The notes under the pieces were generated by a model that saw only the letters and a program-made list of their open reading frames with translations, was not told the DNA's origin and made no database searches. A DNA stretch of 64,000 bases from Pelosinus sp. (GTDB lineage: Bacteria; Bacillota; Negativicutes; DSM-13327): positions 1 to 64,000 of the forward strand of contig JARBUM010000002.1 of assembly GCA_029239675.1 (NCBI GenBank), written 5' to 3'. Shown piece by piece: positions 18,116 to 46,395 of the stretch. Positions within the stretch are counted from its first letter, which is position 1, and each line of letters begins with the position of its first letter. A program made the position numbers and the translations under genes.

Positions 18116-18169
18116 AAAGAAGACTTGGTCTAGGTGGAGTTTCAAACCCACCAAAATCAAGTCTTCTTT
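18116..18169 (-). terminator. Terminator-like hairpin at the end of the selenium gene operon
   Basis: AAAGAAGACTTG pairs with CAAGTCTTCTTT around an inner GGTGGG/CCACC helix; the 3' arm is T-rich. It overlaps the stop codon of the DUF3343 gene. Because the ABC genes start immediately beyond it, some read-through is likely. Confidence 0.8.
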
Positions 18170-18444
18170 ATAAAATCTTCATACTCTGCGATCTTTTCAT
18201 AAACTTTATTCAAACTATCTCTTATAAACAACTCTGCCCAATACACATTTTTATCCCGCAAAACAGCCATCAATTGACCCTCTTGCTCATCCATAAAAAG
18301 AATGCATTGCCCACAAGTTATATTAATTTCCCGAGGAATTGGCACTGCAGCCACTCTTATAGCGGCTTGACTCAGCAATTCTTCAGCTCGAATAGCGTGG
18401 CGTATAGAACAAAAAGAGAGTAGACGATTATATTCCTCATACAT
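18157..18444 (-). CDS. DUF3343 putative Se/S carrier-like protein
   Basis: A 95-residue protein of the DUF3343 family: a short ferredoxin-like fold beginning FCSIRHAIRAEELL and carrying a CGQC pair near 44-47. Families of this kind sit beside selenium-handling genes and are thought to pass sulfur or selenium, possibly to molybdenum hydroxylases. Here it is the last gene after selD and yedF, 9 bases from yedF, which supports that reading. No experimental role is known to me. Confidence 0.8.
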   Translation of the reverse strand: MYEEYNRLLSFCSIRHAIRAEELLSQAAIRVAAVPIPREINITCGQCILFMDEQEGQLMAVLRDKNVYWAELFIRDSLNKVYEKIAEYEDFIKKT

Positions 18445-18453
18445 GACCTCACC

Positions 18454-19041
18454 TCATAAAGTAATGGCTTTTCCAGAAGAAGATAATTCTTCTATAATCG
18501 AATACATATTGGTTATTGCCCCGACAACTAATTTATCTTTTAGCTCATAATAGTCAAGGCATGCACCACATGATAGTATTTGTACGCCTTTATTATTTAA
18601 CGCAACTAGATGTTCCAATACTGAAGAGTTTTCAGTCGTTAAGAATACCCCACCGTTAATAAACATGATGGTGCGAGGTAAAGGTTCTTTTTCTAGTAAT
18701 GCATAAAAGAAAGATTTTATTAAAACTGCCCCCAGTTCACTATTTCCCTGTCCCAGGGTACTTTGAGTAATAAGATATACACTATCATTTTGGACTATTT
18801 TAGGAGTTAGGTCCGCAACTACTCCTTGCCCTTTAGTGATAGTAATAGAATAAAGATTATCTTTCTCTTCTACTGTGACTTTACATTGATTTGCAGTAGC
18901 AAATTTCATGACATTTTCTTTGGCTGCTAGATTATCAACAACCACGGTAATGATTCCATCAACCATTTCTTCCAATGCTTTTTTTGTAGCAATAACAGGA
19001 CGTGGACAAGCTAATCCACGAGCATCTACACTAATAAACAT
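18454..19041 (-). CDS. yedF: Selenium-metabolism sulfurtransferase-like protein YedF
   Basis: A 195-residue protein with an N-terminal TusA-like domain (DARGLACPRPVIATKKAL, CPxP cysteine near 10) and a C-terminal DsrE-like domain (INGGVFLTTENSSV...ILSCGACLDYY). YedF is encoded in organisms using selenium and is thought to carry selenium. The ATG at 19041 was chosen because GAGGTGA is 7 bases upstream; it overlaps the end of selD by 11 bases, implying translational coupling. A longer in-frame start at 19071 lacks a ribosome site. Confidence 0.93.
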   Translation of the reverse strand: MFISVDARGLACPRPVIATKKALEEMVDGIITVVVDNLAAKENVMKFATANQCKVTVEEKDNLYSITITKGQGVVADLTPKIVQNDSVYLITQSTLGQGNSELGAVLIKSFFYALLEKEPLPRTIMFINGGVFLTTENSSVLEHLVALNNKGVQILSCGACLDYYELKDKLVVGAITNMYSIIEELSSSGKAITL

Positions 19042-20059
19042 AAATTTCACCTCTTTCTTTATTGGAAACACGTCCTATAATTGCTGCCTCCTCTATTCCA
19101 GCCTGCTGCAAATCTGTGAGCAATTGTGAAGCAACATCTTCTGGAACGCTCACGAGGAGACCACCAGAAGTTTGCGGGTCATAGCACAAATCCCGTATGT
19201 ATTCTGGTACTGTAGGCGCAAATTTAATGGTGGTTAGATAACTCCGAGTACTATAGGCACTAGCTGGTATTAATCCCATCTCTGCCGCTTCTTTTGCCTC
19301 TGGCAAAAAAGGCAGGGTTGTGGTATCAATAGAAATTCCAATACCGCTAGCATTTGCCATCTCATGGAGATGTCCTAATAGACCAAATCCAGTAATATCG
19401 GTGCAAGCATGAGCAGTAAATCTTTCTATTATTTCAGCAGCTGTTCGGTTCAGTTTAACCATACTCCTAACAGCTGCTGCAGCCCCCTTGGGAAACATCT
19501 CTGCACGAGCCGCCATAGTCAAAACACCTGTGCCAATAGCTTTGGTAATGAGTAATACATCCCCTAGTTTAGCCCCAGCATTAGTAAGAATTCTATTAGG
19601 ATGCGCTACACCCGTGACACTTAGTCCATATTTAGGTTCATCGTCGTGAATAGAGTGGCCACCAACGATGAGAGCTCCTGCCTCGGCTACTTTATCTTGC
19701 CCACCACGCAAAATAGTCAAAAGCACTTCAGGATCAAGTTTGCAAACAGGGAATGCCACTAAATTCATAGCAGTCAGTGGCTTCCCACCCATGGCATAAA
19801 CATCACTTAGGCTATTTGCTGCAGCAATCTGACCAAATAAATAGGGATCATCAACAATGGGAGTAAAAAAATCAACAGTTTGAATCAATGCAGTTGTTTC
19901 ATTTAGCTTATATACACCGGCATCATCCGAAGTATCTATACCAACTAAGAGGCGAGGATCAGATATTTTAGGCAATTGCCGTAATACCTCTGCTAAATCT
20001 CCCGGACCAATTTTAGCAGCACAACCACCATTTTTGCTATACTCCGTTAATTTTATCAT
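19031..20059 (-). CDS. selD: Selenophosphate synthetase (Cys form)
   Basis: Makes selenophosphate from selenide and ATP, the selenium donor for selenocysteine, seleno-tRNA and the labile Se cofactor of molybdenum hydroxylases. The 342-residue protein has the catalytic site GGCAAKIGPGDL with Cys13 where many homologues have selenocysteine; Lys16 is next to it. GIDTSDDAGVY, VDFFTPIVDDPY and GGHSI.DDEPKYGL are also typical. It overlaps yedF and follows the xdhC pieces, so here it is probably dedicated to the Se-dependent xanthine dehydrogenase. Confidence 0.97.
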   Translation of the reverse strand: MIKLTEYSKNGGCAAKIGPGDLAEVLRQLPKISDPRLLVGIDTSDDAGVYKLNETTALIQTVDFFTPIVDDPYLFGQIAAANSLSDVYAMGGKPLTAMNLVAFPVCKLDPEVLLTILRGGQDKVAEAGALIVGGHSIHDDEPKYGLSVTGVAHPNRILTNAGAKLGDVLLITKAIGTGVLTMAARAEMFPKGAAAAVRSMVKLNRTAAEIIERFTAHACTDITGFGLLGHLHEMANASGIGISIDTTTLPFLPEAKEAAEMGLIPASAYSTRSYLTTIKFAPTVPEYIRDLCYDPQTSGGLLVSVPEDVASQLLTDLQQAGIEEAAIIGRVSNKERGEIYVY

Positions 20060-20079
20060 ATGACTGCCTCCCCTAAGCT

Positions 20080-20391
20080 TTAAATAACTTGAAGAAAGAT
20101 TTCCATTGTACCGCCGCAGACCATCCCCTCATCAGCTGCATTATCATCAAGCAATGACAATACATAAGTAAAGGATATATTTTCATCTAAGGCTCTAAGA
20201 GCTTGTAACCTAGCCTCTGACTCTGTACACCCACCACCGATAGTACCTACTATCCTTCCATCAGGATAGACAAGCATTTTAGTTCCTGCTTTACGAGGCG
20301 TCGAACCATGAGTGTCAACAATGGTAACTAACACAGCCTTACTTTTTTCTCCCTTAATATCACAAATAGTTTTAAGAATTATTTCATCCAT
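20080..20391 (-). CDS. XdhC/CoxI-domain maturation protein, N-terminal half
   Basis: A 103-residue protein equal to the XdhC_CoxI domain alone, with VDTHGSTPRKAGTKMLV and GTIGGGCTE. XdhC proteins bind molybdenum cofactor and insert its equatorial sulfur or, in selenium systems, selenium before it enters xanthine dehydrogenase. The second half of a normal XdhC is a separate gene 4 bases upstream (20396-21157). The two polypeptides are likely to work together. No frameshift is evident: both have clean starts and stops. Confidence 0.85.
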   Translation of the reverse strand: MDEIILKTICDIKGEKSKAVLVTIVDTHGSTPRKAGTKMLVYPDGRIVGTIGGGCTESEARLQALRALDENISFTYVLSLLDDNAADEGMVCGGTMEIFLQVI

Positions 20392-20395
20392 CCTA

Positions 20396-21157
20396 TCACC
20401 TTCCTATATCTCTAAGAGGTAAGCAAGTCCCTTTTCGAGTAGTTGCTAATACCTCTGCAACAATACTAAGAGCAATCTCTGCTGGTGTTTGAGCACCAAG
20501 ATCAAGGCCAATGGGAGCCCGCAGGTGTGATAAAAATTCTTTGGATACACCTTCTTCAGTCAACTTTTTTATAATTCCATTGACTCTTCGCCGACTGCCA
20601 ATCATACCTAGATATGATACCGGATAATGCATCACTGCCCGTAAGCATTCTAAATCATAACGATGTCCTCTGGTAACAATAATAATTGCAGAGTACCTTT
20701 TATTATTTATTTCTTTTAAAGCGATTCCAAAATTTTCACAAATAACGCTTTCGGCATTGGGAAAAGAGATGTTGTTCGCAAAATCAGGACGATCATCTAC
20801 TACTGTTACAGCGTAGCCGATCAAATATAGCATCTCCACTACAGGCTGACTAATATGCCCAGCTCCTAATACCAAAGCACTCGGTCGAGTGCTCAAGCGA
20901 TCCCAAAAGAGACGATAGTGCCCATTATATTCTAGTTCTATTATTGTCGCCTTCTGCCAGCTTATTGTTTCTATTTTTTGAATAAGCGCGGTAGTAAAAG
21001 TTTGATCAACAAGAATTCCTTCAGGCTCATTCCCGTTGGATATAGTCAACATTTCCCCTAAGTTAATTGCTTGTTCCTTAGGAGTGTTTATAATTGTTAT
21101 AATATCTGTCGGTTGATAACGATTGGCCTTTTGCAATAGACGTAAAAAAATATCCAT
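20396..21157 (-). CDS. XdhC Rossmann-domain maturation protein
   Basis: A protein of 253 residues (from ATG at 21157, preceded by GGGGGGAG; an in-frame ATG at 21175 has no site). The C-terminal two thirds is the XdhC Rossmann domain: LVLGAGHISQPVVEML, VVDDRPDFA, LGMIGSRRRV, RAPIGLDLGAQTPAEIALSI. The N-terminal 90 residues are a poorly conserved XdhC-like region. It pairs with the short XdhC_CoxI protein downstream and probably matures the selenium-dependent xanthine dehydrogenase. Confidence 0.88.
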   Translation of the reverse strand: MDIFLRLLQKANRYQPTDIITIINTPKEQAINLGEMLTISNGNEPEGILVDQTFTTALIQKIETISWQKATIIELEYNGHYRLFWDRLSTRPSALVLGAGHISQPVVEMLYLIGYAVTVVDDRPDFANNISFPNAESVICENFGIALKEINNKRYSAIIIVTRGHRYDLECLRAVMHYPVSYLGMIGSRRRVNGIIKKLTEEGVSKEFLSHLRAPIGLDLGAQTPAEIALSIVAEVLATTRKGTCLPLRDIGR

Positions 21158-21284
21158 ATCTTCTCCCCCCGCCATATTCTCTTTTCATCGGATATAGGAT
21201 AAAATTCCGTTAATAGCGAGTAGCAATATCTTCAATCCAAATTAAATATCATTATTAGCTTATCATCATTTTCTAATCCTTATA

Positions 21285-21530
21285 TTATTCGGGAACTTTT
21301 ATTAAGAAACGTAATGTCGGTCCAATTTTCTGAGGAATCTCCATCATTTCATAGCCGGCTTTCACTACTTCTTCAGGCACAGAAATAAAACTTTGCGGAC
21401 AATCTGCTAATACTTCAACAATACTCCCCTTAGCTAATTTACCTAATGTATTTAAAGAAAAAATAACTGGATAAGGACAGGGTTCCCCCCTAAGATCTAA
21501 TAAATATAGTTTATCCGTTTGCTTCATCAT
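21285..21530 (-). CDS. TusA/YeeD-like sulfur or selenium carrier
   Basis: An 81-residue TusA-family protein with the invariant LRGEPCPYPVIFSL (CPxP, Cys near 18) whose cysteine carries persulfide or selenide. It overlaps the YedE transporter gene by 20 bases, the usual transporter-carrier pair (YeeE-YeeD). In this cluster it presumably takes selenium or thiosulfate sulfur from the transporter and passes it to SelD or the maturation proteins. Confidence 0.9.
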   Translation of the reverse strand: MMKQTDKLYLLDLRGEPCPYPVIFSLNTLGKLAKGSIVEVLADCPQSFISVPEEVVKAGYEMMEIPQKIGPTLRFLIKVPE

Positions 21531-22737
21531 GTTTTGACCTCCTCACTACTATTCCTTGATTTGAAACTTGTCGCCAATCAGCCCAAATATACAAGGAAAA
21601 TAGCATAGCGATCGTGAGAATAATAGCTCCAACGTAGCCAAAATTTGTGACTAAGTTAATTCTGGGAAAGGGTTCCACTAACCAAGTATATATACCAGAA
21701 TCCCAGGCAAGAATTAAAATTGTCGCTCCAATAACATTACCAATGCCAACAAACCAAAATTGTATCTGTCCTTCTACTGATCGATACATCCATCCAGTTT
21801 CACACCCTCCAGCAATAACAATACCCAAACCAAATAAAGCACCTCCTAGTAATGCGCCAGGACCAGCCCACCAAATGACCTTAGGAGGCATACCTTGTGC
21901 CAAAAACACAGCAGTAATTAGAGTCTGAACTACCATACCCCAAACCAAAGCTTTTGTCATCTTAGAGCGTCCAATTAGCCAGAGATCTCGAAAGGCAGAT
22001 GTAAAACAAATTTGTCCTTTCTGTATTAGAAAACCAAAACCAAACCCGAAACAAGTAGCAATCAATAAATTCAGTGCATAGTTAGCGCTCACTTTTTGAA
22101 GTAAGTAAAGAATAAATAGAATCAGTCCTAGAAACCCAATATAAGGTTGCACACGATAATACCATCGATCTTGCAACATATTTCCCACGGTTTTCACTGA
22201 AACCAGTTTCGGTTCCCCCATCATGAGTGGGTGCATGCTTAATTTTAATCCATAAAACGTACCAACTATAGTACCAAAAGTAAAGAGCCAAGTATGAAAT
22301 GAGAATTGAGGAATCCCTGTAAATAAGGCCGCTAAGTTACACCCCATCGCCATTCTTGTGCCAAACCCTGCAATTATTCCTCCTAGCAAAGCTTGAAGTA
22401 TGCGTCTACCTGATGGTAGGCGCAACTTAACATTCTGCCCAAACAGCGCACTAATAAAAGCACCGCTAAACATTCCTATTACCATCACACCATCAATTCT
22501 AGTTAAAGGTGATCCTGCAAAGTTAATTAATTTTAAATATGTATAATGACTTACATCCACACCGATAATTTCCAAGAAATGTCCACCCCAGCGAGTAAAC
22601 TCCCCTGTTACCGCCCAGGCTACACCAACAGAGCCAAAATATAAGGCGCTTAATACTCCTAATGCAATTACTGAAGACTTTTGTTCCCAGAAGTTTTCTA
22701 CAATTCTCAAATAATATATTTTATATAATGATATCAT
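21511..22737 (-). CDS. yedE: YedE/YeeE-family putative selenium (or thiosulfate) transporter
   Basis: A polytopic membrane protein of 408 residues with about nine or ten helices. It has the conserved YeeE cysteine loops: GTRMAMGCNLAALFTG, QKGQICFTSAFRDLWL and AGGCETGWMYRS. Homologues import thiosulfate; those next to selD and yedF are annotated as selenium transporters. The gene overlaps its TusA-like partner. An ATG start follows AGGAGAAG. The selenium role is inferred from neighbours. Confidence 0.88.
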   Translation of the reverse strand: MISLYKIYYLRIVENFWEQKSSVIALGVLSALYFGSVGVAWAVTGEFTRWGGHFLEIIGVDVSHYTYLKLINFAGSPLTRIDGVMVIGMFSGAFISALFGQNVKLRLPSGRRILQALLGGIIAGFGTRMAMGCNLAALFTGIPQFSFHTWLFTFGTIVGTFYGLKLSMHPLMMGEPKLVSVKTVGNMLQDRWYYRVQPYIGFLGLILFILYLLQKVSANYALNLLIATCFGFGFGFLIQKGQICFTSAFRDLWLIGRSKMTKALVWGMVVQTLITAVFLAQGMPPKVIWWAGPGALLGGALFGLGIVIAGGCETGWMYRSVEGQIQFWFVGIGNVIGATILILAWDSGIYTWLVEPFPRINLVTNFGYVGAIILTIAMLFSLYIWADWRQVSNQGIVVRRSKHDEANG

Positions 22738-22811
22738 GAATGACTTCTCCTAACCATCATTTATCCAATTACTTTCAGTATAACTTTTACAACTATCAAA
22801 TCAAATGATAT

Positions 22812-25367
22812 TTATTTTTTCTTATTATATGCAGTATCTTTTAATGGTAAGGAATTTCTAAGTTTTCCATCCCGCCTATAGTAGGCACAAGCTACCGCAG
22901 GTGCACCAGGAATTGCTACAATTTCACCTACACCTTTTGCACCGTAGGCAAGAGATGAGTGATTTTTTTCCACAAGAATACAATCAATTGTAGGTACATG
23001 AATAGAGCGAAATAAGCCTAGTGTACCAAATTTTGCAGTAGGCATACCATTCTCTAGGGGAAAATCTTCTGTAAGCGCATAACCTAGACTCATGACTACT
23101 CCCCCCTCTATTTGCCCTTCTACAGAAACAGGATTAATAGCTTTACCTACATCATGAGCAGCTACTACTTTTTCAACTTTCCCCTGATCATCTAAAATCA
23201 CTACCTGTGTAGCATAGCCATAAGCAACATGACTAACAGGATTAGCTTTAGTAGAGTTCATAGGGTCAGTTATACCACAGTATTCCTTATAATATTCCTT
23301 ACCCTCTAGTTGTAACAACGAGGCTATTTCTAAATCAGCTTTAAGAGCCAAAGCAGCCTGACGAGCAGCTTCCCCATTAAATACAGTTTGTCTTGAAGCT
23401 GTTGATGTACCTCCATTAGGGGTCATCAACGTATCTGCAGGATAAGCTTCAATAGAAGTAGCGTGTAGACCTGTTGTTTCTGCAACGATTTGGATTAAAG
23501 TAGTTGCCAATCCTTGGCCCATACAAGCTGCACTCGTATAAATAACGACTTTTCCTTCTAGTACCCTAATCCTTACTCGCCCTACATCTGGCACTCCTAC
23601 ACCAAGACCACTATTTTTCATAGCACAGGCAATTCCAGCATCAGGATATTCATTAAAAATATCCTCTACAGCTAATAAAGTTTCTTTAAAAGCTGTACTT
23701 TCATCAGCAATTTGTCCATTTGTCAGTACTTTACCAGGTTCAATAGCATTGCGAAAACGAATTTCCCAAGGAGAAATACCTGCTTTTTCTGCCAATAGAT
23801 TAAGATTTGTTTCCATCGCAAAACAAGACTGAGTTACGCCAAACCCGCGAAAAGCCCCTGCTGGTGGATTATTTGTATATACGCCCAAGCCTGTAATATC
23901 AACATTTTCAACTTGATAAGGTCCTGCAGCATGAGTACAGGCTCGCTGCAAAACAGGTCCTCCTAGAGAAGCATAAGCACCAGTATCAGCTACAAGAAAA
24001 GCCTGTACGGCTGTGAGTTTTCCATTTTCATCACAAGCAGTAGTAAACTCCATTTCCATAGCATGACGTTTAGGATGCGTCCGAATACTTTCTTGGCGGC
24101 TTAGTGTGATTTTGACAGGTTTACCTGTATGCCAAGTCAATAGTGCTGCGTGGTGTTGTACAGATAAATCCTCTTTGCCACCAAAACCACCGCCTACCAA
24201 TTTACTAATCACTCGCACTTTCTCATTGTCTACTCCTAACAAACCTACAATACCATGATGGTCATCATACACACTCTGAGTCCCTGTATATACTATCATA
24301 ATTCCTTGTTCAGAGGGAACAGCCAAGGCACTTTCTGGTTCTAAAAAAGCATGTTCCGTTGGAGGGGTCGTATATTTTTGGGTTACAACATATGCAGCTT
24401 TTGAGAAGGCTTGCTCTACATTGCCCCGTTTGAGAACCGTTTTATTAAGTATATTACCCTTAGCATTGATTTTGGGAGCCTTTTCTTCCATGGCTGCCTG
24501 TGGAGTAAGCAATGGTACTAGCTCTTCATAATCTACTTTAATCAATTGCAATGCATTCTCTGCATTTCTCTTTGAAGTTGCTGCAACTAAGGCTAAAGCA
24601 TCCCCCACATAACGGGTTTCTTCGCCTTCAGCAATCAGTGCTGGCCAATCTTGAACTATGTGACCTAGGAATCGCTGTCCCGGGATATCTTTTGCTGTTA
24701 ATACTGCTTTAACACCGAGAGCTATTGTTGCATCAGAAATATCGATTTTTTTCACTAAAGCCCTAGGATATTTAGCTCTTAATACAGCGCCATACAGCAT
24801 ATCCTCCACTTTCATATCATCAACATAAATACCAGTACCCAATACTTTCTCAGTAACATCAATGCGATGCATATTTTCTCCAACCCGATACTTAATTTCC
24901 ACTTGAGGAACATAATCTTCATATAAAGCTTTGGCTACCATCGCTATCGCCTTTTCAATTTTTACGTAACCAGTACAACGGCAAATATTTCCTTGTAGAG
25001 CCTTCTTAATCTCTGTACCTGTTGGATTAGGATTTTGATCTAATAACGCTTTCGCACTAATCACCATACCCGGTATGCAAAAACCACACTGAACTGCTCC
25101 AGCTTCAGCAAAAGCCCAACTGTATACTTCTTTTTCTCGTTGAGATAGACCTTCTACCGTAGTAACTTGTCTTTCACCCACTTTGGCTATGGTTAAGAGG
25201 CAGGCTCGAAAAGCTTTTCCACCCACTAATACCATACAAGCACCACATGCTCCTTCACCACAGCCATTTTTTACAGAAGTGAGGCGAGCCTCATCACGCA
25301 AAAAATCCAGTAAGTTCATGTCTTCCTTTACAGAATAAATATTGTTGTTAAGATTTATTCTGAACAT
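22812..25367 (-). CDS. xdh: Selenium-dependent xanthine dehydrogenase, fused Fe-S/Mo subunit
   Basis: An 851-residue molybdenum hydroxylase that fuses a two-cluster [2Fe-2S] module (about 1-155; NGCGEGACGACMVL, QCGFCIPGM, CRCTGYVK) to the molybdopterin subunit (about 160-851; GGGFGGKEDLS, GAFRGFGVTQ, AKGVGEIVAIPGAP with the catalytic Glu). There is no FAD subunit in the fusion. Size and context (yedE, yedF, selD, xdhC, ygfK, hyuA) match the selenium-dependent xanthine dehydrogenase family, which carries selenium as a labile ligand and not as selenocysteine. Likely substrates are xanthine, hypoxanthine or another purine. Confidence 0.9.
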   Translation of the reverse strand: MFRINLNNNIYSVKEDMNLLDFLRDEARLTSVKNGCGEGACGACMVLVGGKAFRACLLTIAKVGERQVTTVEGLSQREKEVYSWAFAEAGAVQCGFCIPGMVISAKALLDQNPNPTGTEIKKALQGNICRCTGYVKIEKAIAMVAKALYEDYVPQVEIKYRVGENMHRIDVTEKVLGTGIYVDDMKVEDMLYGAVLRAKYPRALVKKIDISDATIALGVKAVLTAKDIPGQRFLGHIVQDWPALIAEGEETRYVGDALALVAATSKRNAENALQLIKVDYEELVPLLTPQAAMEEKAPKINAKGNILNKTVLKRGNVEQAFSKAAYVVTQKYTTPPTEHAFLEPESALAVPSEQGIMIVYTGTQSVYDDHHGIVGLLGVDNEKVRVISKLVGGGFGGKEDLSVQHHAALLTWHTGKPVKITLSRQESIRTHPKRHAMEMEFTTACDENGKLTAVQAFLVADTGAYASLGGPVLQRACTHAAGPYQVENVDITGLGVYTNNPPAGAFRGFGVTQSCFAMETNLNLLAEKAGISPWEIRFRNAIEPGKVLTNGQIADESTAFKETLLAVEDIFNEYPDAGIACAMKNSGLGVGVPDVGRVRIRVLEGKVVIYTSAACMGQGLATTLIQIVAETTGLHATSIEAYPADTLMTPNGGTSTASRQTVFNGEAARQAALALKADLEIASLLQLEGKEYYKEYCGITDPMNSTKANPVSHVAYGYATQVVILDDQGKVEKVVAAHDVGKAINPVSVEGQIEGGVVMSLGYALTEDFPLENGMPTAKFGTLGLFRSIHVPTIDCILVEKNHSSLAYGAKGVGEIVAIPGAPAVACAYYRRDGKLRNSLPLKDTAYNKKK

Positions 25368-25423
25368 ACTTCACGACCTTTCTTAACCATTTTATGGACG
25401 GTAGTGTGTATGAATTTTTTCTC

Positions 25424-27931: not shown

Positions 27932-27933
27932 AT

Positions 27934-37705: not shown

Positions 37706-37721
37706 TGCAAGAAATGTGCCA
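37706..37721 (-). promoter_or_regulatory. Sigma-54 promoter of the dpaL operon
   Basis: TGGCAC (37721-37716), a 5-base spacer and TTGCA (37710-37706) fit the -24/-12 consensus exactly. It lies about 40 bases upstream of dpaL and needs an enhancer-binding activator. Confidence 0.9.
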
Positions 37722-37851
37722 GAATTAAGATATATTTTCAATAACTCTTTACAGAATGACATATACAGGTCAACTACTTGTTCTCTTCCCAAATTAATAT
37801 GATATATATAAAACAAAGAAAACGCGTCAACCCAGATCACATGTATAATTT

Positions 37852-37966: not shown

Positions 37967-38042
37967 ATGATATCTGAGCTTAATACGTCTAAATGTATTG
38001 AGTCACTTAAAAAATATGAGCGGTTATTCTTAAACAACTCTT

Positions 38043-39755
38043 TTAGATGGAAACGGAGGAAATTACTAATTTATTTACATCAACCAGCCCCTTATCTGTC
38101 AATTTAAGTGTTGGTATTACGGGTAAGCTCATAAATGCTAACGTCATAAAAGGATCATAACAAGGATTAACACCAAGCTCAGAAGCAATATTGTGTAATA
38201 AGATTAATTGGTCATAAACAATATGAATATCCTGATCTGCCATTAACCCTGCTAAGGGCAAGGCTAGTGTTCCTAACACCTTTCCCTTGTTTACAATGAC
38301 AATACCGCCTTGTATTCTTTCAAGTTCTTGTACAGCCATAATCATATCAGGATCACTAGCTCCAATGACAACAACATTATGAGAATCATGAGCAATTGTA
38401 GAAGCAATAGCTCCTGAGTGCATTCCAAAGCCCTTTACTAGACCAACACCAACATTCCCGGTAGCATGATGCCGCTCAAACACTGCCATTTTTAAAATAT
38501 CATTGGCGATATCTTGCACAAATTCCCCATTAGTTACTTCCATTTCTAGTTCTAGTGCAGTTGTAATGAGCTGATGTGGTACAAGACCAATCACTCTAGC
38601 TAACGTTGAATTAGCCTTAAGCTTTAATTGATTAAGATGGATATCTCCCAAATACATAGTTTCGCGTATCTGATCATCATTCATTTGCAAGCTAGTAAAC
38701 ACAATTTTGCCATTTTTCGCTACCATTTGTCCCTTTTTGAAAACCATGCTAGGACGCCATGATTCTAAATCATCAAACACTAACAAATCAGCATAATAAC
38801 CTGGTGCAATCGCTCCAAAATCTTTCAGACTAAAATAAGTTGCTGGATTAATAGTAACCATTTGCAACACTGTAGCGACTTCAATACCTCCAGCAACTGC
38901 CATTTGCACCATATGATTGATGTGACCAAGAGTAATGAGATCACCAGGATGTCTGTCATCAGTAGCAAACATACAACGTCGAGCCGTATGACAGTTGACC
39001 ATGGGTAATAGATTGATAAGATTCTTAGCTGCTGAACCTTCACGCAACATGATATACATTCCTTGCTCCAATCTTTCCATAGCCTCATCAACCGTCACAC
39101 ATTCATGATCGGATCCAATACCAGCAGCAATATAAGCAGTTAATTTCTTACCAGAAAGTTCTGGTGCATGACCATCTATCAACTTACCTTCAGCCAGTTT
39201 AATTTTTGCCAGTATCTCCTCATTTTGCTGAAGAACCCCAGGATAGTCCATAAGTTCTCCTAATCCTAGCACTCTTGGGTGGTTTATAAATTTAGCCAAT
39301 TCATTTGCTGTTAATTTTGCACCTGAAGTTTCTAGTACAGTAGCAGGCACACAGGAAGGTAACATAACAAAGATGTCTAGAGGCAACCCCTCCGCTGCAT
39401 CTAATATATATTGAATGCCTTTCTCACCCACCACATTGGCAATTTCATGTGGATCAGCAATCAGAGTAGTAGTTCCTGCCGGGACTACTACCTTTGCAAA
39501 TTCTCCAGGACTAACCATAGAACTTTCCATATGAACATGTCCATCAATAAAACCCGGAGTTAAGAATTTCCCCGTCAAGTCTAGCTCCTTAGTCCCACTA
39601 TATTGGCCAATACCAGCGATGTAGCCGTCAACAACAGCTACATCGCCTTTAGCAAATTTTCCGGTAAACACATTGAAAATATGAGCATGTTTTAATACTA
39701 AATCCCCAGGAGCCTGCCCCTGAGCCACAGCAATTAATTTATTTATTGGTTTCAT
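38043..39755 (-). CDS. ade: Adenine deaminase
   Basis: A 570-residue amidohydrolase with GFIDGHVHMESSMVSPGEF near 67-85, LIADPHEIANVVG near 100 and ATDDRHPGD near 270, the family's metal and active-site segments. It converts adenine to hypoxanthine and ammonia. The ATG at 39755 follows AAGGTGAT; the in-frame GTG at 39764 lies within that ribosome site. It is downstream of and close to the AzgA-type permease gene, so imported adenine is deaminated at once and passed to xanthine dehydrogenase. Confidence 0.96.
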   Translation of the reverse strand: MKPINKLIAVAQGQAPGDLVLKHAHIFNVFTGKFAKGDVAVVDGYIAGIGQYSGTKELDLTGKFLTPGFIDGHVHMESSMVSPGEFAKVVVPAGTTTLIADPHEIANVVGEKGIQYILDAAEGLPLDIFVMLPSCVPATVLETSGAKLTANELAKFINHPRVLGLGELMDYPGVLQQNEEILAKIKLAEGKLIDGHAPELSGKKLTAYIAAGIGSDHECVTVDEAMERLEQGMYIMLREGSAAKNLINLLPMVNCHTARRCMFATDDRHPGDLITLGHINHMVQMAVAGGIEVATVLQMVTINPATYFSLKDFGAIAPGYYADLLVFDDLESWRPSMVFKKGQMVAKNGKIVFTSLQMNDDQIRETMYLGDIHLNQLKLKANSTLARVIGLVPHQLITTALELEMEVTNGEFVQDIANDILKMAVFERHHATGNVGVGLVKGFGMHSGAIASTIAHDSHNVVVIGASDPDMIMAVQELERIQGGIVIVNKGKVLGTLALPLAGLMADQDIHIVYDQLILLHNIASELGVNPCYDPFMTLAFMSLPVIPTLKLTDKGLVDVNKLVISSVSI

Positions 39756-39775
39756 CTTGATCACCTTGTTTCTCC

Positions 39776-41116
39776 TTAGTGAAGACGCATATAAAAATTA
39801 ATTAAGAAGGCTACGCTAACCGCCCACATAATCCAACTAACGTCTTTTGCTTTTCCTGTTAGCGATTTAATAAAAGTATAACTGATAAATCCAAAAGCAA
39901 AGCCATTGGCAATACTAAAGGTTAACGGCATCATGATAATAGTCATGAAAGCTGGAAAACCATCAGTAAAATCTGCAAAGTTAACTTGACCAATCTCCGC
40001 CATCATCAGTGCTCCTACCAGAATGAGGGCTGGAGCTGTTGCAAATCCAGGTACTAGACCAATAAGTGGAGCAAATAGCAACGAAACAATGAATAATAGA
40101 GATACAGTAAGGGCGGTTAATCCTGTTTTTCCACCTTCCGCAATACCAGCAGCACTTTCTACATAAGATGTAACAGTAGAAGTACCAAACATGGCACTGC
40201 CAATCGTACCGATAGCATCGGTCGTCAATGCCTTATCCAGATTTTCAATCTCACCATTTTTATCCATCAATTTAGCTTTACGAGTTAAGCCAATTAAAGT
40301 CCCCATATTATCAAATAATTCTACTATAGTAAATGTAAATATAATCGAAAATATGCCATACTCCCAAGCTCCTATAATATCCATTTGCATAAAAGTAGCA
40401 CTCATGCTAGGAAGATTAAAACTCATAATATCACCAATGCCTTTAGGAGTAGGCACAGCGCCCAAGAGCATCCCTAATATAGTAGTTGTAAGTATACCAA
40501 TCAACATGGAACCTTTAACGTTACGAGCCATCAATACTGAGGTTAAGATTAAGCCAGCACAGGATAATAGAGGCTCGATACTGGTTAAGTTCCCCACTGT
40601 AACAAAAGTAGCCTTATCGGCAACAATAATTCCAGAATTTTTCAAACCAATAAAGGCAATAAACAAACCAATACCTACGCCAATGGAACATTTTAAATTC
40701 ATAGGTACCGCTTTAATAATGGCTTGGCGAATGCCCCCCATAGTTAAAATCAAGAATAAAAACCCTGAGAAAAAGACAGCTCCTAAGGCTACCTGCCAAG
40801 GGAGATGCAGTACCCCCACAACATAATATGCAAAAAAAGCGTTAAGTCCCATGCCTGGAGCCACTGCGATAGGATAGTTAGCCCAAAGAGCCATGAGCAA
40901 GGTTACCACAGCTGTTGCATAAATAGTAGACGCAATCGCTGCTTCTTTAGGAATTCCGGCGTCTGCTAAGATATTAGGATTCACAAAAATAATATAAGCT
41001 AGCGCAACAAAGGTAGTCAAACCAGCCAGCACTTCTGTTTTTACATCCGTTTTTTTCTGACTGAGTTTAAAGAATCGGTCTAAAAAACTCTGCTTGATTA
41101 CAATATTGGGTATCAT
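39776..41116 (-). CDS. AzgA-type NCS2 purine permease (adenine/guanine/hypoxanthine)
   Basis: A 446-residue membrane protein of about 12-13 helices. The segments AGLTTFVALAYIIFVNPNIL, MGLNAFFAYYVVG and TSTVTSYVESAAGIAEGGKTGLTAL are those of AzgA-like purine permeases. The ATG at 41116 has GGGAGG 7 bases upstream. It precedes ade by 20 bases, forming an uptake-deamination pair. A 13-bp palindrome at 41165-41177 lies in its upstream region. Confidence 0.93.
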   Translation of the reverse strand: MIPNIVIKQSFLDRFFKLSQKKTDVKTEVLAGLTTFVALAYIIFVNPNILADAGIPKEAAIASTIYATAVVTLLMALWANYPIAVAPGMGLNAFFAYYVVGVLHLPWQVALGAVFFSGFLFLILTMGGIRQAIIKAVPMNLKCSIGVGIGLFIAFIGLKNSGIIVADKATFVTVGNLTSIEPLLSCAGLILTSVLMARNVKGSMLIGILTTTILGMLLGAVPTPKGIGDIMSFNLPSMSATFMQMDIIGAWEYGIFSIIFTFTIVELFDNMGTLIGLTRKAKLMDKNGEIENLDKALTTDAIGTIGSAMFGTSTVTSYVESAAGIAEGGKTGLTALTVSLLFIVSLLFAPLIGLVPGFATAPALILVGALMMAEIGQVNFADFTDGFPAFMTIIMMPLTFSIANGFAFGFISYTFIKSLTGKAKDVSWIMWAVSVAFLINFYMRLH

Positions 41117-41164
41117 TCTAAAACCTCCCAATTATTCTTACAAACCAAATATAACGAGCTTTTC

Positions 41165-41177
41165 ATAACCAGGTTAT
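41165..41177. promoter_or_regulatory. Palindrome ATAACC-N-GGTTAT upstream of the AzgA permease gene
   Basis: A perfect 6-1-6 inverted repeat about 50 bases before the start codon. It could be a repressor site or a small hairpin. No second copy was noticed in the window. Confidence 0.4.
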
Positions 41178-41314
41178 AGTCTATACGTTTATCTGTAATT
41201 GGTTCCCCCCTTTTTCGTTTTTTCTATATAAAACACACTAATTTCTTACTGCATTTAATACGTGATTATACTTCATCACCTAAGACTTTTTGCGCAACAA
41301 TCTAAAGTTTTTTC

Positions 41315-41806
41315 TCAATCTATTTGTACAGCTTGTTTATCCTCTCTTCCCAAGGCTTTTTCCGCAGCAAGCATAATATTATGGTAGCCCGTACAGCGGC
41401 ACATATGACCAGATAACTCTTTTTTAATCTGTTCCCTGCTGAAGTTCTTGCCACTCTCCAGCATCTCCGTTGTTGACATTACAAACCCTGGCGTACAAAA
41501 TCCGCATTGTACAGCTGTTTCATCTAGAAAGGCTTGCTGTACTTTGGACAATTTTCCGTCTTTAGCTTCACCTTCAATAGTTCTGATTTCTTTTCCATCT
41601 GCCCAGACTGCAAGATAAATACACGTATCAAAGGCCATATTATCAATAAGTACTGTACAGGCACCACATTCACCAACAGAGCAACCCTTTTTCACCCCTG
41701 TCAGGTGAAACTTATTTCTCAGAACATCTAACAATGATTCTCTGATATCAACTTCGATCGTAACTTCTTTACCATTAACTTTGAAGGTAATTTTTTTAAC
41801 TAACAT
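41315..41806 (-). CDS. xdhC: Xanthine dehydrogenase, [2Fe-2S] subunit
   Basis: A 163-residue subunit with two [2Fe-2S] motifs: KGCSVGECGACTVL near 39-52 and QCGFCTPGF...CRCTGYHN near 96-140. It carries electrons between the molybdenum and FAD subunits. Its start overlaps the stop of the FAD subunit gene by one base. The symbol follows the E. coli three-subunit naming and should not be confused with the XdhC maturation factor at 20-21 kb. A 184-base gap with no gene follows before the permease. Confidence 0.94.
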   Translation of the reverse strand: MLVKKITFKVNGKEVTIEVDIRESLLDVLRNKFHLTGVKKGCSVGECGACTVLIDNMAFDTCIYLAVWADGKEIRTIEGEAKDGKLSKVQQAFLDETAVQCGFCTPGFVMSTTEMLESGKNFSREQIKKELSGHMCRCTGYHNIMLAAEKALGREDKQAVQID

Positions 41807-42684
41807 TACAGTTCACCTCCGGCATTGATAAAAGCCTGCCTAAAGGCCCGTTTGCTTAATTCTTGGATTAACTGTATGCGAAATTCCTTGGAAGCACGCC
41901 AAGATGTTCTTGGATTGACTTCTTCTATCGCCATTTTTCCTACCTCTTCTAATAATGCTTCTGTAAAAATCCTTCCTTTTACCTGTTCTTCTGTTCCTTT
42001 ACAACGCATCGGAATAGGGGCAGCCACCCCTAAAGCTAATCTGAAATCCTTAATTTTCTTTCCACCCTCTACATTACAAAGAACAACACAACCCAAGGTT
42101 GCAATATCCATTGCATTACGCATGGCATATTTAATATAATGACCGCTATATCCCTGGTAATCTTCAGGTGCAATCAAAATAGTTGTTAGAATCTCTTCAT
42201 GGCGCAAATCGACTTTACCTGGCCCTTTATAAAAATCTGCAATTGGAATATAACGCACACCATCAGGGCCTTGGATTTCTAATTTAGCATTGAAGGCAAA
42301 TAGGGTAGAAGCACTATCAGCAGAAGTAACTCCATTACAAATATTACCGCCAATACTCCCGATATTGCGAATCTGTGGACCGCCAACCATATCTACAGCT
42401 TCTCCTAAAACAGGAATATATTGCTGAACAATCGGATGTTTCGAGACTTGACTAAAACTAGCCCCTGACCCTATCACAATGGTTCCATCTTCCTTAAGAA
42501 AGATTCCCTTTAGCTCAGCTATCCCGTGTATGCTAATTAATTGGGCATCATGTATTTTTCCTTCATGTAACTTAATTAGAACATCGCTACCACCTGAAAT
42601 CAGCATGGCATTTGGGTTGACTAGCAGTAATTCTATGGCCTCTTGTACCGAACCAGCTTCTTCATATTTTGCAATGTCATACAT
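41806..42684 (-). CDS. xdhB: Xanthine dehydrogenase, FAD-binding subunit
   Basis: A 292-residue FAD-binding subunit of the CO-dehydrogenase flavoprotein family, with LISGGSDVLIKL near 29-40 and GSIGGNICNGVTSADSAST near 108-126, which bind the FAD. It passes electrons from the Fe-S subunit to NAD+ or another acceptor. It is the middle gene of the three-subunit enzyme, 16 bases after the molybdenum subunit. Confidence 0.94.
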   Translation of the reverse strand: MYDIAKYEEAGSVQEAIELLLVNPNAMLISGGSDVLIKLHEGKIHDAQLISIHGIAELKGIFLKEDGTIVIGSGASFSQVSKHPIVQQYIPVLGEAVDMVGGPQIRNIGSIGGNICNGVTSADSASTLFAFNAKLEIQGPDGVRYIPIADFYKGPGKVDLRHEEILTTILIAPEDYQGYSGHYIKYAMRNAMDIATLGCVVLCNVEGGKKIKDFRLALGVAAPIPMRCKGTEEQVKGRIFTEALLEEVGKMAIEEVNPRTSWRASKEFRIQLIQELSKRAFRQAFINAGGEL

Positions 42685-42700
42685 TTTCTATCACTTCCCC

Positions 42701-44983
42701 CTATAGTAAGCCTGTTTCCTTAAATTTCTCAAATAAACGTTGTGGATTCATGGGAACTTCATAGATCTTCACACCTGTGGCATCATAAATTGCATTACGA
42801 ATAGCAGGCGCAGGCGATATAGCAGGCGGTTCCCCAAGAGCTTTATTTCCATAAGGTGCAGTTGGTTCATAGGTTTCAATAAAAGCAGTACCTATCTCAG
42901 GTGTATCTAATGTAGTCATCAGTTTATAATCAAGAAGATTACTATTTAACGGCCTGCCTGTTTTGCAATCAAACAGCATTTGCTCATATAAAGCATATCC
43001 TAAGGCCATGCTCACTCCCCCATGAACTTGAGCATGAGCTAATTTAGGATTAATAAGCCTTCCTGCATCATGGACATTATAAATTTCCAAAACCTCTACT
43101 TTTGCAGTAGGCATATCGACTTCTATCTCAACGAAAGTACATCCGTAAGCCAGAGCATTCGTTCTCGCATTATTCGTCACATCAGCCGTAATTGGAGCGG
43201 CAAAAACGGTATCATAATAGCTATCTAATGCCACATCTGCAAGGGATAGCACCCTCTCTCCATTATGTATATAAGCTATCCAGCCATCTATAATGGTGAG
43301 CGCGCTTGCAGGAATATCAGTCATACCCCAGGCATAATTCAAGACTTTCATCCTAATCTCTTCTGCTGCTTTTTTTACTGCCATACCTGATACATAGGTC
43401 TGCCTTGAAGCATAAGACCCTGTATCAAAAGGTGTGATATCTGTATCTTGGGAAGATACCACACTAACCATCTCAATAGATATCCCAATCGTCTCTGCTG
43501 CCATTTGGGCAAAAACCGTATCACTTCCCTGTCCAATCTCCGTGGCTCCAACCTGTAATTGAATAGAACCATCTTGATTAAGTACAATTCTAGCGCCAGC
43601 AAGTTCCAGTCCAAAAGGATAGGTTCCTGTCTTATAACAAAAACAAGCCATCCCTAATCCGCGCCGTTTTGCTCCTGTATCTTTTGACTTATTTGTCTTT
43701 TTTCTATCCCAGCCAATCAAATCCTTACCTGTAGCAACACATTCAGCAAGCCCATTACTTCGAGCGCAAATACCACTTAAAGGGTCTATATAACCTTCTT
43801 GATTGCTATTTTTCAAACGAAATTCGATAGGATCAAGCTTTAGTTCTCTAGCGATATCCTCCATATGTGATTCTAAACCAAAAGTAATTTGAGGAATACC
43901 GTATCCTCTCATGGCACCTGCTGTAGGTAGGTTGGTATAGACCGTCGTTGCCTCACCCCTAATTGCTTTTTGATCATATAGATGCCTAAATTTCGTAAGG
44001 CAGTTAGATGCAATCGAGTGTCCGTGGGAAGCATATGCGCCATTATTAGAAATCGCCGTTAGTTCTCTGGCAATGATCTTTCCCTCTTTATTTACGCCTG
44101 TTTTAAATTTGAATTTAAATGCATGGCGAACCCGAGATGCAATAAATGTTTCTTCTCTCGTAAATTCTAGTTTTACGGGTTTGCCATGAACTACTGTTGT
44201 CATAAAGGCAACCAGAGGCTCTACTACTATATCCTGCTTACTGCCAAAGCCACCTCCGATATAGGGCTTAATGACACGTGCCCGCCCCCAGGGAATACCT
44301 AAAGCCTGACCGATAATCCGACGACAGATATGGGGGATTTGCGTTGAAGAAACAACTACAATCTTGCCATTTTCATCTATATAAGAATAAGCACTATGAT
44401 TTTCCATAGCACAGTGCTGCACCATACTGGTAATAAACTCATCTTCAAAGATATAATCTGATTCTGCAAACGCTTCTTCCAGCTCTCCTAAAGAAAAATC
44501 AGTTGTTTTTATAATATTTTTAGTACCTTCATGAATTTCAATCGCCTCTTCTTTTAAAGAATCCTCGACTGTTAAAATAGGTAAATATTCCTCATATTCA
44601 ACTTCGATAAGACGTAATGCTTTTTCAGCTGTCAATTCATCTACGGCAATGACGGCTGCAATCTCGTCACCATATAAACGTACTCGTTGGGTAAGCAGAT
44701 TACGATCCGCCACATCTTGATGTTCTGGATCTTTACTATAAGGGTGACCTGCTGTAGGGAACATATGTTTCGGAACATCCTCGAAGGTAATAACTGCTTC
44801 CACACCTGGCATTGCTTTGGCTTTACTTATATCAATTTTTTTCACCCAGCCATTGGCGATTGTACTACGGTAAATTTTTGCATAAAGCATATCCTTCTCA
44901 AAAAAATCATCTACATATTTAGCTTTGCCGCAAACTTTGGCAAAACCATCAATTCTCGGGAAATTCTTTCCTACACTCTGCAT
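42701..44983 (-). CDS. xdhA: Xanthine dehydrogenase, molybdenum-binding subunit
   Basis: A 760-residue subunit holding the molybdopterin active site: IGGGFGSKQDIVVEP, AGAMRGYGIPQ, QVGATEIGQGSDT, and GNKALGEPPAIS with the catalytic Glu near the C-terminus. It oxidises hypoxanthine or xanthine. The ATG at 44983 was chosen because AAAGGAG is correctly placed for it; a GTG at 44992 lies on the ribosome site. With xdhB and xdhC it makes a second xanthine dehydrogenase beside the fused Se-type one. Confidence 0.94.
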   Translation of the reverse strand: MQSVGKNFPRIDGFAKVCGKAKYVDDFFEKDMLYAKIYRSTIANGWVKKIDISKAKAMPGVEAVITFEDVPKHMFPTAGHPYSKDPEHQDVADRNLLTQRVRLYGDEIAAVIAVDELTAEKALRLIEVEYEEYLPILTVEDSLKEEAIEIHEGTKNIIKTTDFSLGELEEAFAESDYIFEDEFITSMVQHCAMENHSAYSYIDENGKIVVVSSTQIPHICRRIIGQALGIPWGRARVIKPYIGGGFGSKQDIVVEPLVAFMTTVVHGKPVKLEFTREETFIASRVRHAFKFKFKTGVNKEGKIIARELTAISNNGAYASHGHSIASNCLTKFRHLYDQKAIRGEATTVYTNLPTAGAMRGYGIPQITFGLESHMEDIARELKLDPIEFRLKNSNQEGYIDPLSGICARSNGLAECVATGKDLIGWDRKKTNKSKDTGAKRRGLGMACFCYKTGTYPFGLELAGARIVLNQDGSIQLQVGATEIGQGSDTVFAQMAAETIGISIEMVSVVSSQDTDITPFDTGSYASRQTYVSGMAVKKAAEEIRMKVLNYAWGMTDIPASALTIIDGWIAYIHNGERVLSLADVALDSYYDTVFAAPITADVTNNARTNALAYGCTFVEIEVDMPTAKVEVLEIYNVHDAGRLINPKLAHAQVHGGVSMALGYALYEQMLFDCKTGRPLNSNLLDYKLMTTLDTPEIGTAFIETYEPTAPYGNKALGEPPAISPAPAIRNAIYDATGVKIYEVPMNPQRLFEKFKETGLL

Positions 44984-45039
44984 GGTCCACACTCCTTTCT
45001 ATAAACAAGAAAGCATATCTATTCAAAAACGAAGGATTT

Positions 45040-46395
45040 CTATTTCATTGTAAGCAGATTATTGACAAGAATATTTGCTTTATGAACTATTTCTTGCTCA
45101 TCCAAATCACATAATTCACCCTGTTGAGCTACAATTTTTCCATTTACGATAGTATAAGCAACAGGCCGATTCACACCAACCGTTGCCAATAAGGATTTAG
45201 GATCGGAACAGGCCCCCACATATTCCAATTGATTGCTATCAATCATAAACAAATCTGCAGCTTTCCCTACTTCAATACTGCCAATATCGTCTCTTCCTAA
45301 AATTTTAGCCCCGCCTTTAGTTCCCATTTTCAAAATTTCATATCCGCTTGGTGCCTGAAGGCTAGCTTGCAAACGATGTAGTAAAAAGGCCGCCCTCAAC
45401 TCTGCTAATAAATTAGAGCCATCATTACTGGCACTTCCATCTACAGCAAGGCCCACAGGTACACCCAATTCCAGCATCCGAGGTATCTTAGCAATCCCTG
45501 ATGATAATTTCTGATTCGATATAGGACAATGTGCTACTCCCGTTTGAGTACATGCAAGCCTATACAACTCTTGATCGCTAAAATGGATGCCATGAGCAAA
45601 CCATACATCCTTGCCAAGCCACCCTAAACTTTCCATGTAATCCAAAGGCCTCATATTATATTTTTCAATACAATAGTCCTCTTCATCTTTGGTTTCTGCT
45701 AGATGAGTATGTAAGCGAACATTGTTTTTTCTTGCTAACTCTGCTGTTCTTATCATTAATTCACTAGTAACACTAAAGGGTGAACAAGGAGCCAAAACTA
45801 TTTGGCGCATAGAATACTTACTAGTATCATGATAGCTTTCAATTAGTTGTAAACTCTCTTCCAGAATTTCCTCTACACTTTGCACCAGTTCATCTGGCGG
45901 CAATCCCCCATTACTCTTGCCTCTAGACATACTTCCTCTGGAAGCATGAAAACGCATTCCTAACTTCTCTGCGGCTAAAAACTGCTGGTCTATAAACGCA
46001 GAATTTTCTTTTGGGAAAACATAATGATGATCAAAGCAGGTGGTACATCCATACTTTAATAATTCTCCCATACCGACCACTGCACTATAATAGATCATCT
46101 CAGGATTGAGTCCTCGCCAGATTTCATATAAGGTAACTAACCAATCAAATAATTCTAGATTTTGCACTTGTGGTAAATTCCGTGTAAAGGTTTGATATAA
46201 ATGATGATGCGTATTGATCAAACCAGGATAAACAAACATTCCTTCAGCATCAATAACTTTATCTGCAATAAAAAACTCCTTACCGATATGGCAAAAATAA
46301 TTATTTTCAATGAAAATGTTTTGATTTTCAAGCACTGTATCTTTATCATCCACAGTAATAATGGCTCTGGCATTTTTGATAAGTATACTTGTCAT
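45040..46395 (-). CDS. 8-Oxoguanine deaminase-like amidohydrolase
   Basis: A 451-residue amidohydrolase with the first metal site GLINTHHHLYQTFTRNLP near 58-75, TTCFDHHYVFP near 118, LHTHLAETKDEED near 232, and VDGSASNDGSN near 327. These match 8-oxoguanine deaminase, which turns 8-oxoguanine into urate; guanine or isocytosine deaminase are alternatives. It is the first gene of the operon with xdhABC and has a sigma-54 promoter, so guanine-derived compounds would enter the same breakdown route. Confidence 0.85.
   Translation of the reverse strand: MTSILIKNARAIITVDDKDTVLENQNIFIENNYFCHIGKEFFIADKVIDAEGMFVYPGLINTHHHLYQTFTRNLPQVQNLELFDWLVTLYEIWRGLNPEMIYYSAVVGMGELLKYGCTTCFDHHYVFPKENSAFIDQQFLAAEKLGMRFHASRGSMSRGKSNGGLPPDELVQSVEEILEESLQLIESYHDTSKYSMRQIVLAPCSPFSVTSELMIRTAELARKNNVRLHTHLAETKDEEDYCIEKYNMRPLDYMESLGWLGKDVWFAHGIHFSDQELYRLACTQTGVAHCPISNQKLSSGIAKIPRMLELGVPVGLAVDGSASNDGSNLLAELRAAFLLHRLQASLQAPSGYEILKMGTKGGAKILGRDDIGSIEVGKAADLFMIDSNQLEYVGACSDPKSLLATVGVNRPVAYTIVNGKIVAQQGELCDLDEQEIVHKANILVNNLLTMK

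Follow-up and report, generated by a model that had tools for sequence, protein, structure and literature searches.

A purine and urate island with selenium-supply genes in a Pelosinus genome, probably under sigma-54 control

Gene content and order of the island

We have analysed a 64-kb stretch of DNA (the window) from contig C53 of a Pelosinus metagenome-assembled genome (MAG) and describe in it an island of some 28 kb on the minus strand (18157–46395), in which genes for purine uptake and urate breakdown stand together with genes of selenium metabolism. The MAG comprises 3.88 Mb in 271 contigs, with 89.2% completeness and 3.5% contamination. Our genus set holds eight genomes of one GTDB genus: the window's genome is G000, P. 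fermentans JBW45 is G003, G006 is a single contig with 100% completeness, and G004 and G007 reach 83% and 85%. Gene identities were assigned with curated NCBIfam cut-offs, Pfam matches and BLAST against E. coli proteins.

In the direction of transcription the island begins with genes for 8-oxoguanine deaminase, an XdhABC-type xanthine dehydrogenase (XDH) with molybdenum (Mo), FAD and Fe-S subunits, an NCS2 permease and adenine deaminase. YgeX, SsnA, another NCS2 permease, YgfK, YgeY, a carbamoyltransferase, carbamate kinase and HyuA follow, and the end is made by a fused selenium-type XDH, YedE, TusA, the C-half and then the N-half of XdhC, SelD, YedF and DUF3343. In coordinate order the genes are:

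18157–18444, minus strand: DUF3343, selenium/sulfur carrier-like (Pfam only: PF11823, E=2.2e-14)
18454–19071, minus strand: YedF, with TusA and DsrE domains, ATG start at 19041 (TIGR03527, 221.9 bits, cut-off 110)
19031–20059, minus strand: SelD, selenophosphate synthetase, Cys form (Cys13, in GGCAAK; TIGR00476, 395 bits, cut-off 125)
20080–20391, minus strand: XdhC N-terminal half, XdhC_CoxI (PF02625, E=1.6e-23)
20396–21175, minus strand: XdhC C-terminal half, Rossmann (PF13478, E=2.6e-41)
21285–21530, minus strand: TusA-like / E. coli YedF-like sulfurtransferase, 81 amino acids (aa) (NF008242, 102.7 bits, cut-off 79)
21511–22737, minus strand: YedE/FdhT selenium-metabolism membrane protein (NF033796, 500.5 bits, cut-off 350)
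22812–25367, minus strand: selenium-dependent-type XDH, fused 2x[2Fe-2S] and Mo domains (TIGR03311, 1408 bits, cut-off 830)
25424–26800, minus strand: HyuA, hydantoinase/dihydropyrimidinase (TIGR02033, 594.6 bits, cut-off 393)
26981–27931, minus strand: carbamate kinase, YqeA/ArcC (TIGR00746, 365.5 bits, cut-off 358)
27934–28938, minus strand: carbamoyltransferase, YgeW-like role (YgeW model TIGR03316, 173.9 bits, cut-off 500; OTC model, 241 versus 281)
28990–30237, minus strand: YgeY hydrolase (TIGR03526, 696 bits, cut-off 321.5)
30388–33696, minus strand: YgfK, Fe-S flavoenzyme (TIGR03315, 1004 bits, cut-off 835)
33749–35074, minus strand: NCS2 permease, urate (UacT) like (TIGR03173, 569.7 bits, cut-off 414)
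35100–36425, minus strand: SsnA aminohydrolase, open reading frame to 36551 (TIGR03314, 644 bits, cut-off 455.5; match from frame residue 44)
36448–37665, minus strand: YgeX diaminopropionate ammonia-lyase (TIGR03528, 677 bits, cut-off 532)
38043–39764, minus strand: adenine deaminase (TIGR01178, 631.8 bits, cut-off 472.5)
39776–41131, minus strand: second NCS2 permease, GhxQ-like (PF00860, E=1.6e-45; 35% identity to GhxQ)
41315–41806, minus strand: XDH Fe-S subunit (NF043084, 253 bits, cut-off 217)
41806–42684, minus strand: XDH FAD subunit (NF043083, 437.7 bits, cut-off 310)
42701–44992, minus strand: XDH Mo subunit (NF043082, 1240.8 bits, cut-off 780)
45040–46395, minus strand: 8-oxoguanine deaminase (NF006055, 585 bits, cut-off 532)

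A sequence-only reading of the window had proposed a one-strand gene set of about 28 kb, and all the genes it named were found within these bounds; the carbamoyltransferase was absent from its list. Its two deaminases, two XDHs and ring-opening, ammonia-lyase and carbamate kinase genes are over curated NCBIfam cut-offs. Both of its purine importers are present, one over the TIGR03173 cut-off and the second (39776–41131) by Pfam match, with no NCBIfam match. In its selenium supply line YedE, TusA, SelD and YedF are over cut-offs and DUF3343 was recognised by Pfam, but the supposed single XdhC is two genes, neither of them over a whole-XdhC cut-off, with the C-half (20396–21175) preceding the N-half (20080–20391). 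We do not regard this split as an oddity of the window: among the XdhC_CoxI matches listed from 60 genomes, its own included, 29 of 41 lie in open frames of at most 166 aa (two of the 29 being pieces of one G048 gene), and the C-half gene stands directly before the N-half gene in 23 of the 30 loci fetched, again counting the window's. SsnA probably starts near 36425 rather than at the TTG at 36551.

The search for homologous islands that the sequence-only reading had called for found the same gene order in G005 and G006, which excludes a chance assembly of the gene set. Only the 8-oxoguanine deaminase gene departs from this order; it is not at the window's place in these two genomes, where a 34%-identical amidohydrolase lies across the regulator instead.

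The reductive uric acid pathway

E. coli and C. difficile are the organisms in which this pathway has been characterised (PMC12507026). Urate is converted to 2,8-dioxopurine, YgfK and SsnA carry out a reductive dearomatisation, and HyuA, YgeW or UacY, YgeY and YgeX lead to pyruvate (PMC12507026; PMC12990295). Every enzyme class of the pathway appears to be present in the island, in line with the earlier suggestion of a link to anaerobic urate breakdown. BLAST gave an E. coli counterpart for all of the pathway enzymes, with identities of 69% (YgeY), 50% (YgeX), 48% (UacT), 44% (YqeA), 40% (HyuA), 39% (YgfK), 37% (YgeV), 34% (SsnA and YgeW), 47, 46 and 53% (XdhA, XdhB and XdhC) and 25% (XdhD). 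The pathway markers SsnA, HyuA, YgeY and YgeX are all over curated cut-offs, as is YgfK. The class of Mo urate reductases found beside pathway genes (XdhD/XdhAC type) would be represented by the TIGR03311 enzyme, judging from its class and position.

Published homologues suggest how the island may work, and it is by analogy with them that we propose the reactions, the roles of the selenium genes, the selenium in the enzyme and the ATP yield. Purines would be imported by the NCS2 permeases and channelled to urate by adenine deaminase, XdhABC and 8-oxoguanine deaminase. The fused Fe-S/Mo enzyme (22812–25367), our proposed urate reductase, would carry labile selenium on its molybdenum and convert urate to 2,8-dioxopurine. 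YgfK and SsnA would reduce and open the ring, and HyuA would open the hydantoin; the YgeW-like transferase would then release one ureido group by phosphorolysis as carbamoyl phosphate, a substrate from which carbamate kinase would form ATP, while YgeY and YgeX would complete the last steps to pyruvate and ammonia. The presence of both carbamoyltransferase and carbamate kinase is consistent with ATP from carbamoyl phosphate. Taken together, the data make it probable, in our judgement with good confidence, that this is a sigma-54-controlled, selenium-supplied island whose reductive uric acid pathway serves the use of adenine, hypoxanthine, xanthine, 8-oxoguanine and urate.

The best PDB sequence match of the fused XDH is nicotinate dehydrogenase 3hrd, which we take to be a selenium–molybdenum enzyme; the TIGR03313 model was not passed (231 bits versus 1102).

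Several points weigh against the proposed pathway. The carbamoyltransferase stays under the YgeW cut-off (173.9 versus 500 bits for TIGR03316) with 34% identity to E. coli YgeW, and for that reason we name it YgeW-like by role only. The fused XDH is only 25% identical to XdhD and has no insert like that which holds E. coli XdhD Glu606, the residue proposed to orient urate. Clostridial XDHs can, besides, reduce urate to xanthine (PMC11448449). An enzyme without a counterpart of Glu606, in a family (TIGR03311) that carries the name xanthine dehydrogenase, might be a plain XDH that interconverts xanthine and urate as in purinolytic clostridia, whose selenium XDHs are described as reversible (PMC11448449); XdhABC would then handle hypoxanthine or be the urate reductase itself. 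We consider this unlikely. The gene lies between hyuA and the selenium genes in the genus and near ygfK/ssnA in many relatives, and in C. sporogenes the pathway is started by a Mo enzyme named XdhAC (PMC12990295). The window's XdhABC, moreover, shares 46–53% identity with its E. coli namesake, whose XdhA is said to act in the oxidation of purines to urate (PMC12507026).

Selenium genes of the window's genome

SelD, YqeB and YqeC make up the signature of the selenium-cofactor trait (PMC5029168). The signature is complete in the window's genome: SelD is in the island, while YqeB, YqeC and a MocA-like gene are found together on contig C138, beside another Mo hydroxylase. No selenocysteine (Sec) or selenouridine (SeU) gene of this genome is over cut-off. 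SelA was not found in it, SelU gave nothing over cut-off, and the SelB model gave five matches, all under cut-off (best 130 versus 242 bits). The best of the five, on inspection, is a 575-aa GTPase adjoining a 266-aa protein, a pair that by appearance we take to be CysN and CysD. The tRNA-Sec model gave seven matches under the gathering score (best 45.6 versus 47 bits, a tRNA-Ser), and these are Ser, Leu, Gly or Trp tRNAs. SelA and SelU are under cut-off in the complete G006 too, which has SelD in its island. The dedicated selenium supply claimed by the sequence-only reading thus finds support, within the bounds of an 89%-complete MAG, and the selenium link appears stronger than the letters of the window alone could show. 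Observed directly are the identity, order, conservation and co-occurrence of the genes, and nothing over cut-off for other selenium traits.

In the proposed scheme YedE, TusA, YedF, DUF3343 and SelD would acquire, carry and activate selenium, and the split XdhC together with YqeB and YqeC would insert it into the Mo enzyme. C. difficile mutants in selD and yqeB lose the growth benefit of urate (PMC11448449). SelD and its neighbours might instead serve general selenium use or selenium detoxification: a role in selenium export has also been put forward for YedE (PMC5322559), and at least one more Mo hydroxylase, that beside YqeB/YqeC on C138, may share the selenium. This we hold to be very improbable, given that no Sec or SeU gene of the window's genome is over cut-off, that SelD and YqeB are over cut-off only in the three of eight genus genomes with a selenium-type XDH, and that YqeB accompanies the related enzymes (clade A, below) in 21 of 23 genomes tested.

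One contig of the assembly (C185, locus L171, 3.6 kb) is 99.9% identical over its length to G002, another species of the genus; it is on this account probably a contamination of the bin, from a strain of the selenium-free type (see below) that lived in the same sample.

Two versions at one chromosomal site

Within the genus, SelD and YqeB are over cut-off in exactly three genomes, G000, G005 and G006, the same three that have the selenium-type XDH; SelA is over cut-off in none of the eight and SelU only in G005. The island of G006 contains SelD, YedF and DUF3343 like that of the window, but where the window has YedE and TusA it carries YqeC and a MocA-like gene; G005 has SelD outside the island, beside SelU, with YedE, TusA, YqeC and a MocA-like gene inside it.

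At the same site G002 and G003 carry the same backbone, flanked by NudC on one side and on the other by ABC transporter genes that form a pair in the window; both genes of the ABC pair are seen in G003 and one in G002, where the fetched stretch ends. The GGDEF-EAL gene that follows NudC in the window is also found in G002 and G003 (in G005 and G006 it falls beyond the stretch fetched). The backbone proteins are close to those of the window: carbamoyltransferase 93–94% identity, YgeY 89–90%, activator 83–84%, YgeX 82–83%, HyuA 81%, carbamate kinase 79–80%, SsnA 78–79% and YgfK 78%, with the urate-type permease at only 64%. Identity to the window's proteins drops to 56% for the fused XDH and to 26–44% for the other XDH subunits. 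In neither genome did adenine deaminase, YedE, TusA, SelD or YedF give a match at the site. Neither SelD nor YqeB is over cut-off anywhere in these two genomes, and each has one TIGR03311 enzyme over cut-off. The split XdhC is kept in G002 (73–82% identity), with no match in G003.

In these two loci (L159 of G002 and L170 of G003, about 1.1–3.0 kb and 5.5–7.4 kb) the ABC gene is separated from the urate genes by a T-box leader and a gene of 520 aa, which from its appearance we take to be LeuA-like.

XDH clades and SelD in a wider set of genomes

A tree of 97 fused XDH rows divides into clade A (52 rows, with the window's) and clade B (45 rows, with those of G002 and G003). All 23 of the clade-A genomes tested have SelD, as do 24 of 40 in clade B (25 of 41 with locus L041). 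The L041 row was dropped as probably misbinned: this contig of 3.6 kb lies in a Neobacillus bin, yet its XDH falls with those of Pelosinus G002 and G003 on very short branches. The genomes were chosen by the analyst for 50 of the 80 named loci (38 of clade B and 12 of clade A), and L038 and L063 were not in the test. The contrast gives a Fisher p of 0.0002, which is not a fair probability because the rows are related.

YqeB, an imperfect marker, is over cut-off in 21 of the 23 clade-A genomes (none in G008, two pieces in G048) and in 19 of the 25 SelD-positive genomes of clade B (19 of 24 without L041). The SelD-negative genomes of clade B number 16, 12 of them also without YqeB; in the four that keep it (L071, L073, L064 and L026) incomplete assembly is a possible explanation of the SelD loss. 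Among those lacking both are P. fermentans JBW45, Parasporobacterium paucivorans DSM 15970, Propionispira arboris and P. raffinosivorans. In view of these 12 genomes the NCBIfam name of TIGR03311, 'selenium-dependent xanthine dehydrogenase', seems over-extended for clade B.

An active-site signature of selenium dependence was sought at window position 738, where all 52 clade-A rows have His and all 16 SelD-negative rows of clade B have Tyr. This candidate was rejected: the 24 SelD-positive clade-B rows have Tyr in 14, Val in seven and His in two, and with Tyr the commonest residue there too, the position marks the clade and not selenium.

The case for a selenium supply dedicated to this enzyme also has its counterweights. 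The clade-A count is confounded, as selenocysteine also explains SelD in the seven of 11 clade-A genomes searched in which SelA is over cut-off (G008, G012, G024, G030, G041, G042 and G048). SelD lies inside the fetched XDH flank in only four of the 80 named loci (L007, L028, L029 and L063), many flanks being short. The word 'dedicated' leans on a MAG with 89% completeness and 3.5% contamination, and, given the contaminant C185, the YqeB/YqeC contig C138 could in principle be foreign too.

Tentatively, and with somewhat more doubt than belief, we suggest that at one site the urate pathway comes in two versions, one dependent on selenium and one not, the block of Mo-enzyme genes having been exchanged together with its selenium genes, under a TIGR03311 name that spans a clade often free of selenium. 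Besides P. fermentans JBW45 and G002, P. paucivorans probably carries the selenium-free version too; it has ssnA, ygfK and hyuA beside its clade-B XDH. Should the version without selenium reduce urate, selenium would not be intrinsic to anaerobic urate reduction. Strict selenium dependence of this reduction is one hypothesis of Johnstone and Self, who call it still unclear what selenium-containing Mo enzymes contribute to the breakdown of urate (PMC11448449). Since C. difficile needs selD for urate use, the selenium-free Pelosinus version offers a test of that need: the pair of versions, one locus with and without selenium genes, makes it testable in native hosts.

Electron supply

The first pathway step is described as poorly understood with regard to its selenium need, selenium insertion and electron donor (PMC11448449; PMC12990295). 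No FAD family is among the Pfam matches of the fused XDH (22812–25367), and no protein of the window matches YgfM by BLAST. On these grounds the electron donor is likely an Fe-S protein, as proposed for C. difficile; the FAD subunit of XdhABC could serve as donor too. A gene cluster beside the island is a candidate for the missing donor:

49953–59468, minus strand: MoeA1, MoeA2, FdhD, HycB1, [FeFe] hydrogenase HydA, HycB2, MobA and Cys-type formate dehydrogenase

A formate dehydrogenase, an [FeFe] hydrogenase and two HycB-type ferredoxins are, as we understand it, the composition of hydrogen-dependent CO2 reductase (HDCR), and genes for all of these parts stand in the cluster. The HycB proteins are 37–38% identical to E. 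coli YgfS, which sits beside the urate locus. This cluster adjoins the island in all three of the genus's selenium-type genomes, and the two selenium-free genomes lack it at this site. It is possibly an electron-supply unit of the island. We also considered the formate dehydrogenase (57426–59468) as a selenoprotein and rejected it, as it has Cys at the Sec position, which we presume to be correctly placed by comparison with the E. coli enzyme.

In another locus (L165, G008, 1651–8382), NuoE-like, NuoF-like and group A6 [FeFe] hydrogenase genes lie directly downstream of a selenium-type XDH on the same strand, possibly another electron partner.

Regulation

Three features of the window bear on control by sigma-54:

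37706–37721, minus strand: −24/−12 promoter-like site upstream of ygeX, an exact match to TGGCACN5TTGCW
46489–46504, minus strand: sigma-54-like promoter upstream of the 8-oxoguanine deaminase gene, one mismatch, 93 bases before the gene
46939–48687, minus strand: sigma-54 activator, YgeV-like (PF00158; 37% identity to E. coli YgeV)

The first site, in the form TGGCACN5TTGCA, ends 40 bases before ygeX. A site of looser form lies upstream of ygeX in all four relatives examined (G002, G003, G005 and G006), and sigma-54-like sites precede the gene of the XDH Mo subunit in G005 and G006. The number of sites with at most one mismatch, six against 2.35 expected, is weak alone; the TGGCAY form was chosen after the sites had been seen, that used on the relatives was looser still and also matched at two places inside genes. 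The case is carried by position and conservation, not by site counts. Scans for sigma-70 promoters and terminators gave nothing usable. A sigma-54 regulon, DioR, has been predicted in Clostridiales, with genes that include ygeW-ygfK-ssnA-ygeY and yqeB (PMC6615313), and the window's activator is possibly its DioR.

Other features of the window

Two 6S RNA genes (11979–12152 and 14114–14287, minus strand) lie about 2 kb apart on either side of an amidohydrolase gene; in G005 and G006 a tandem pair of 6S RNAs directly follows the same ABC genes. The amidohydrolase (12237–13934, 565 aa, outside the island) belongs to PF07969, the Pfam family of C. difficile UacY, and shares 82% identity with its JBW45 counterpart over the stretch of the latter that was seen.

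Comparison with known systems

Among the literature matches listed, mostly outside subscription papers, none described an island for urate or for the selenium cofactor in Pelosinus. The urate pathway itself is already known, and the window's island is a well-equipped example of it.

The E. coli K-12 cluster, xdhABC-ygeVWXY-hyuA-yqeABC-mocA-ygfK-ssnA-ygfM-xdhD-xanQ-guaD-ghxQ-ygfST-uacT, shares with the window its enzyme classes, regulator, kinase and transporters at 25–69% identity. Unlike it, the window has no YgfM match, its reductase candidate passes TIGR03311 and not TIGR03313, and its island holds selD, yedE, tusA, yedF and adenine deaminase, with yqeB and yqeC on another contig.

C. difficile likewise has a Mo enzyme without a YgfM subunit (PMC12507026), predicted sigma-54 control by DioR (PMC6615313) and a dependence of urate use on selD and yqeB (PMC11448449). 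It has UacX and UacY, whereas the window keeps YgfK and a YgeW-like transferase (PMC12507026).

A close parallel on the selenium side is the selenium-cofactor trait of Enterococcus faecalis, described as selD, yqeB, yqeC and a Mo hydroxylase with no Sec or SeU, in which SelD serves only selenium-dependent molybdenum hydroxylases and lies near purine genes (PMC2276186). The window's genome differs from it in having yqeB and yqeC on another contig, and in its island the selenium genes are joined by YedE, TusA and DUF3343.

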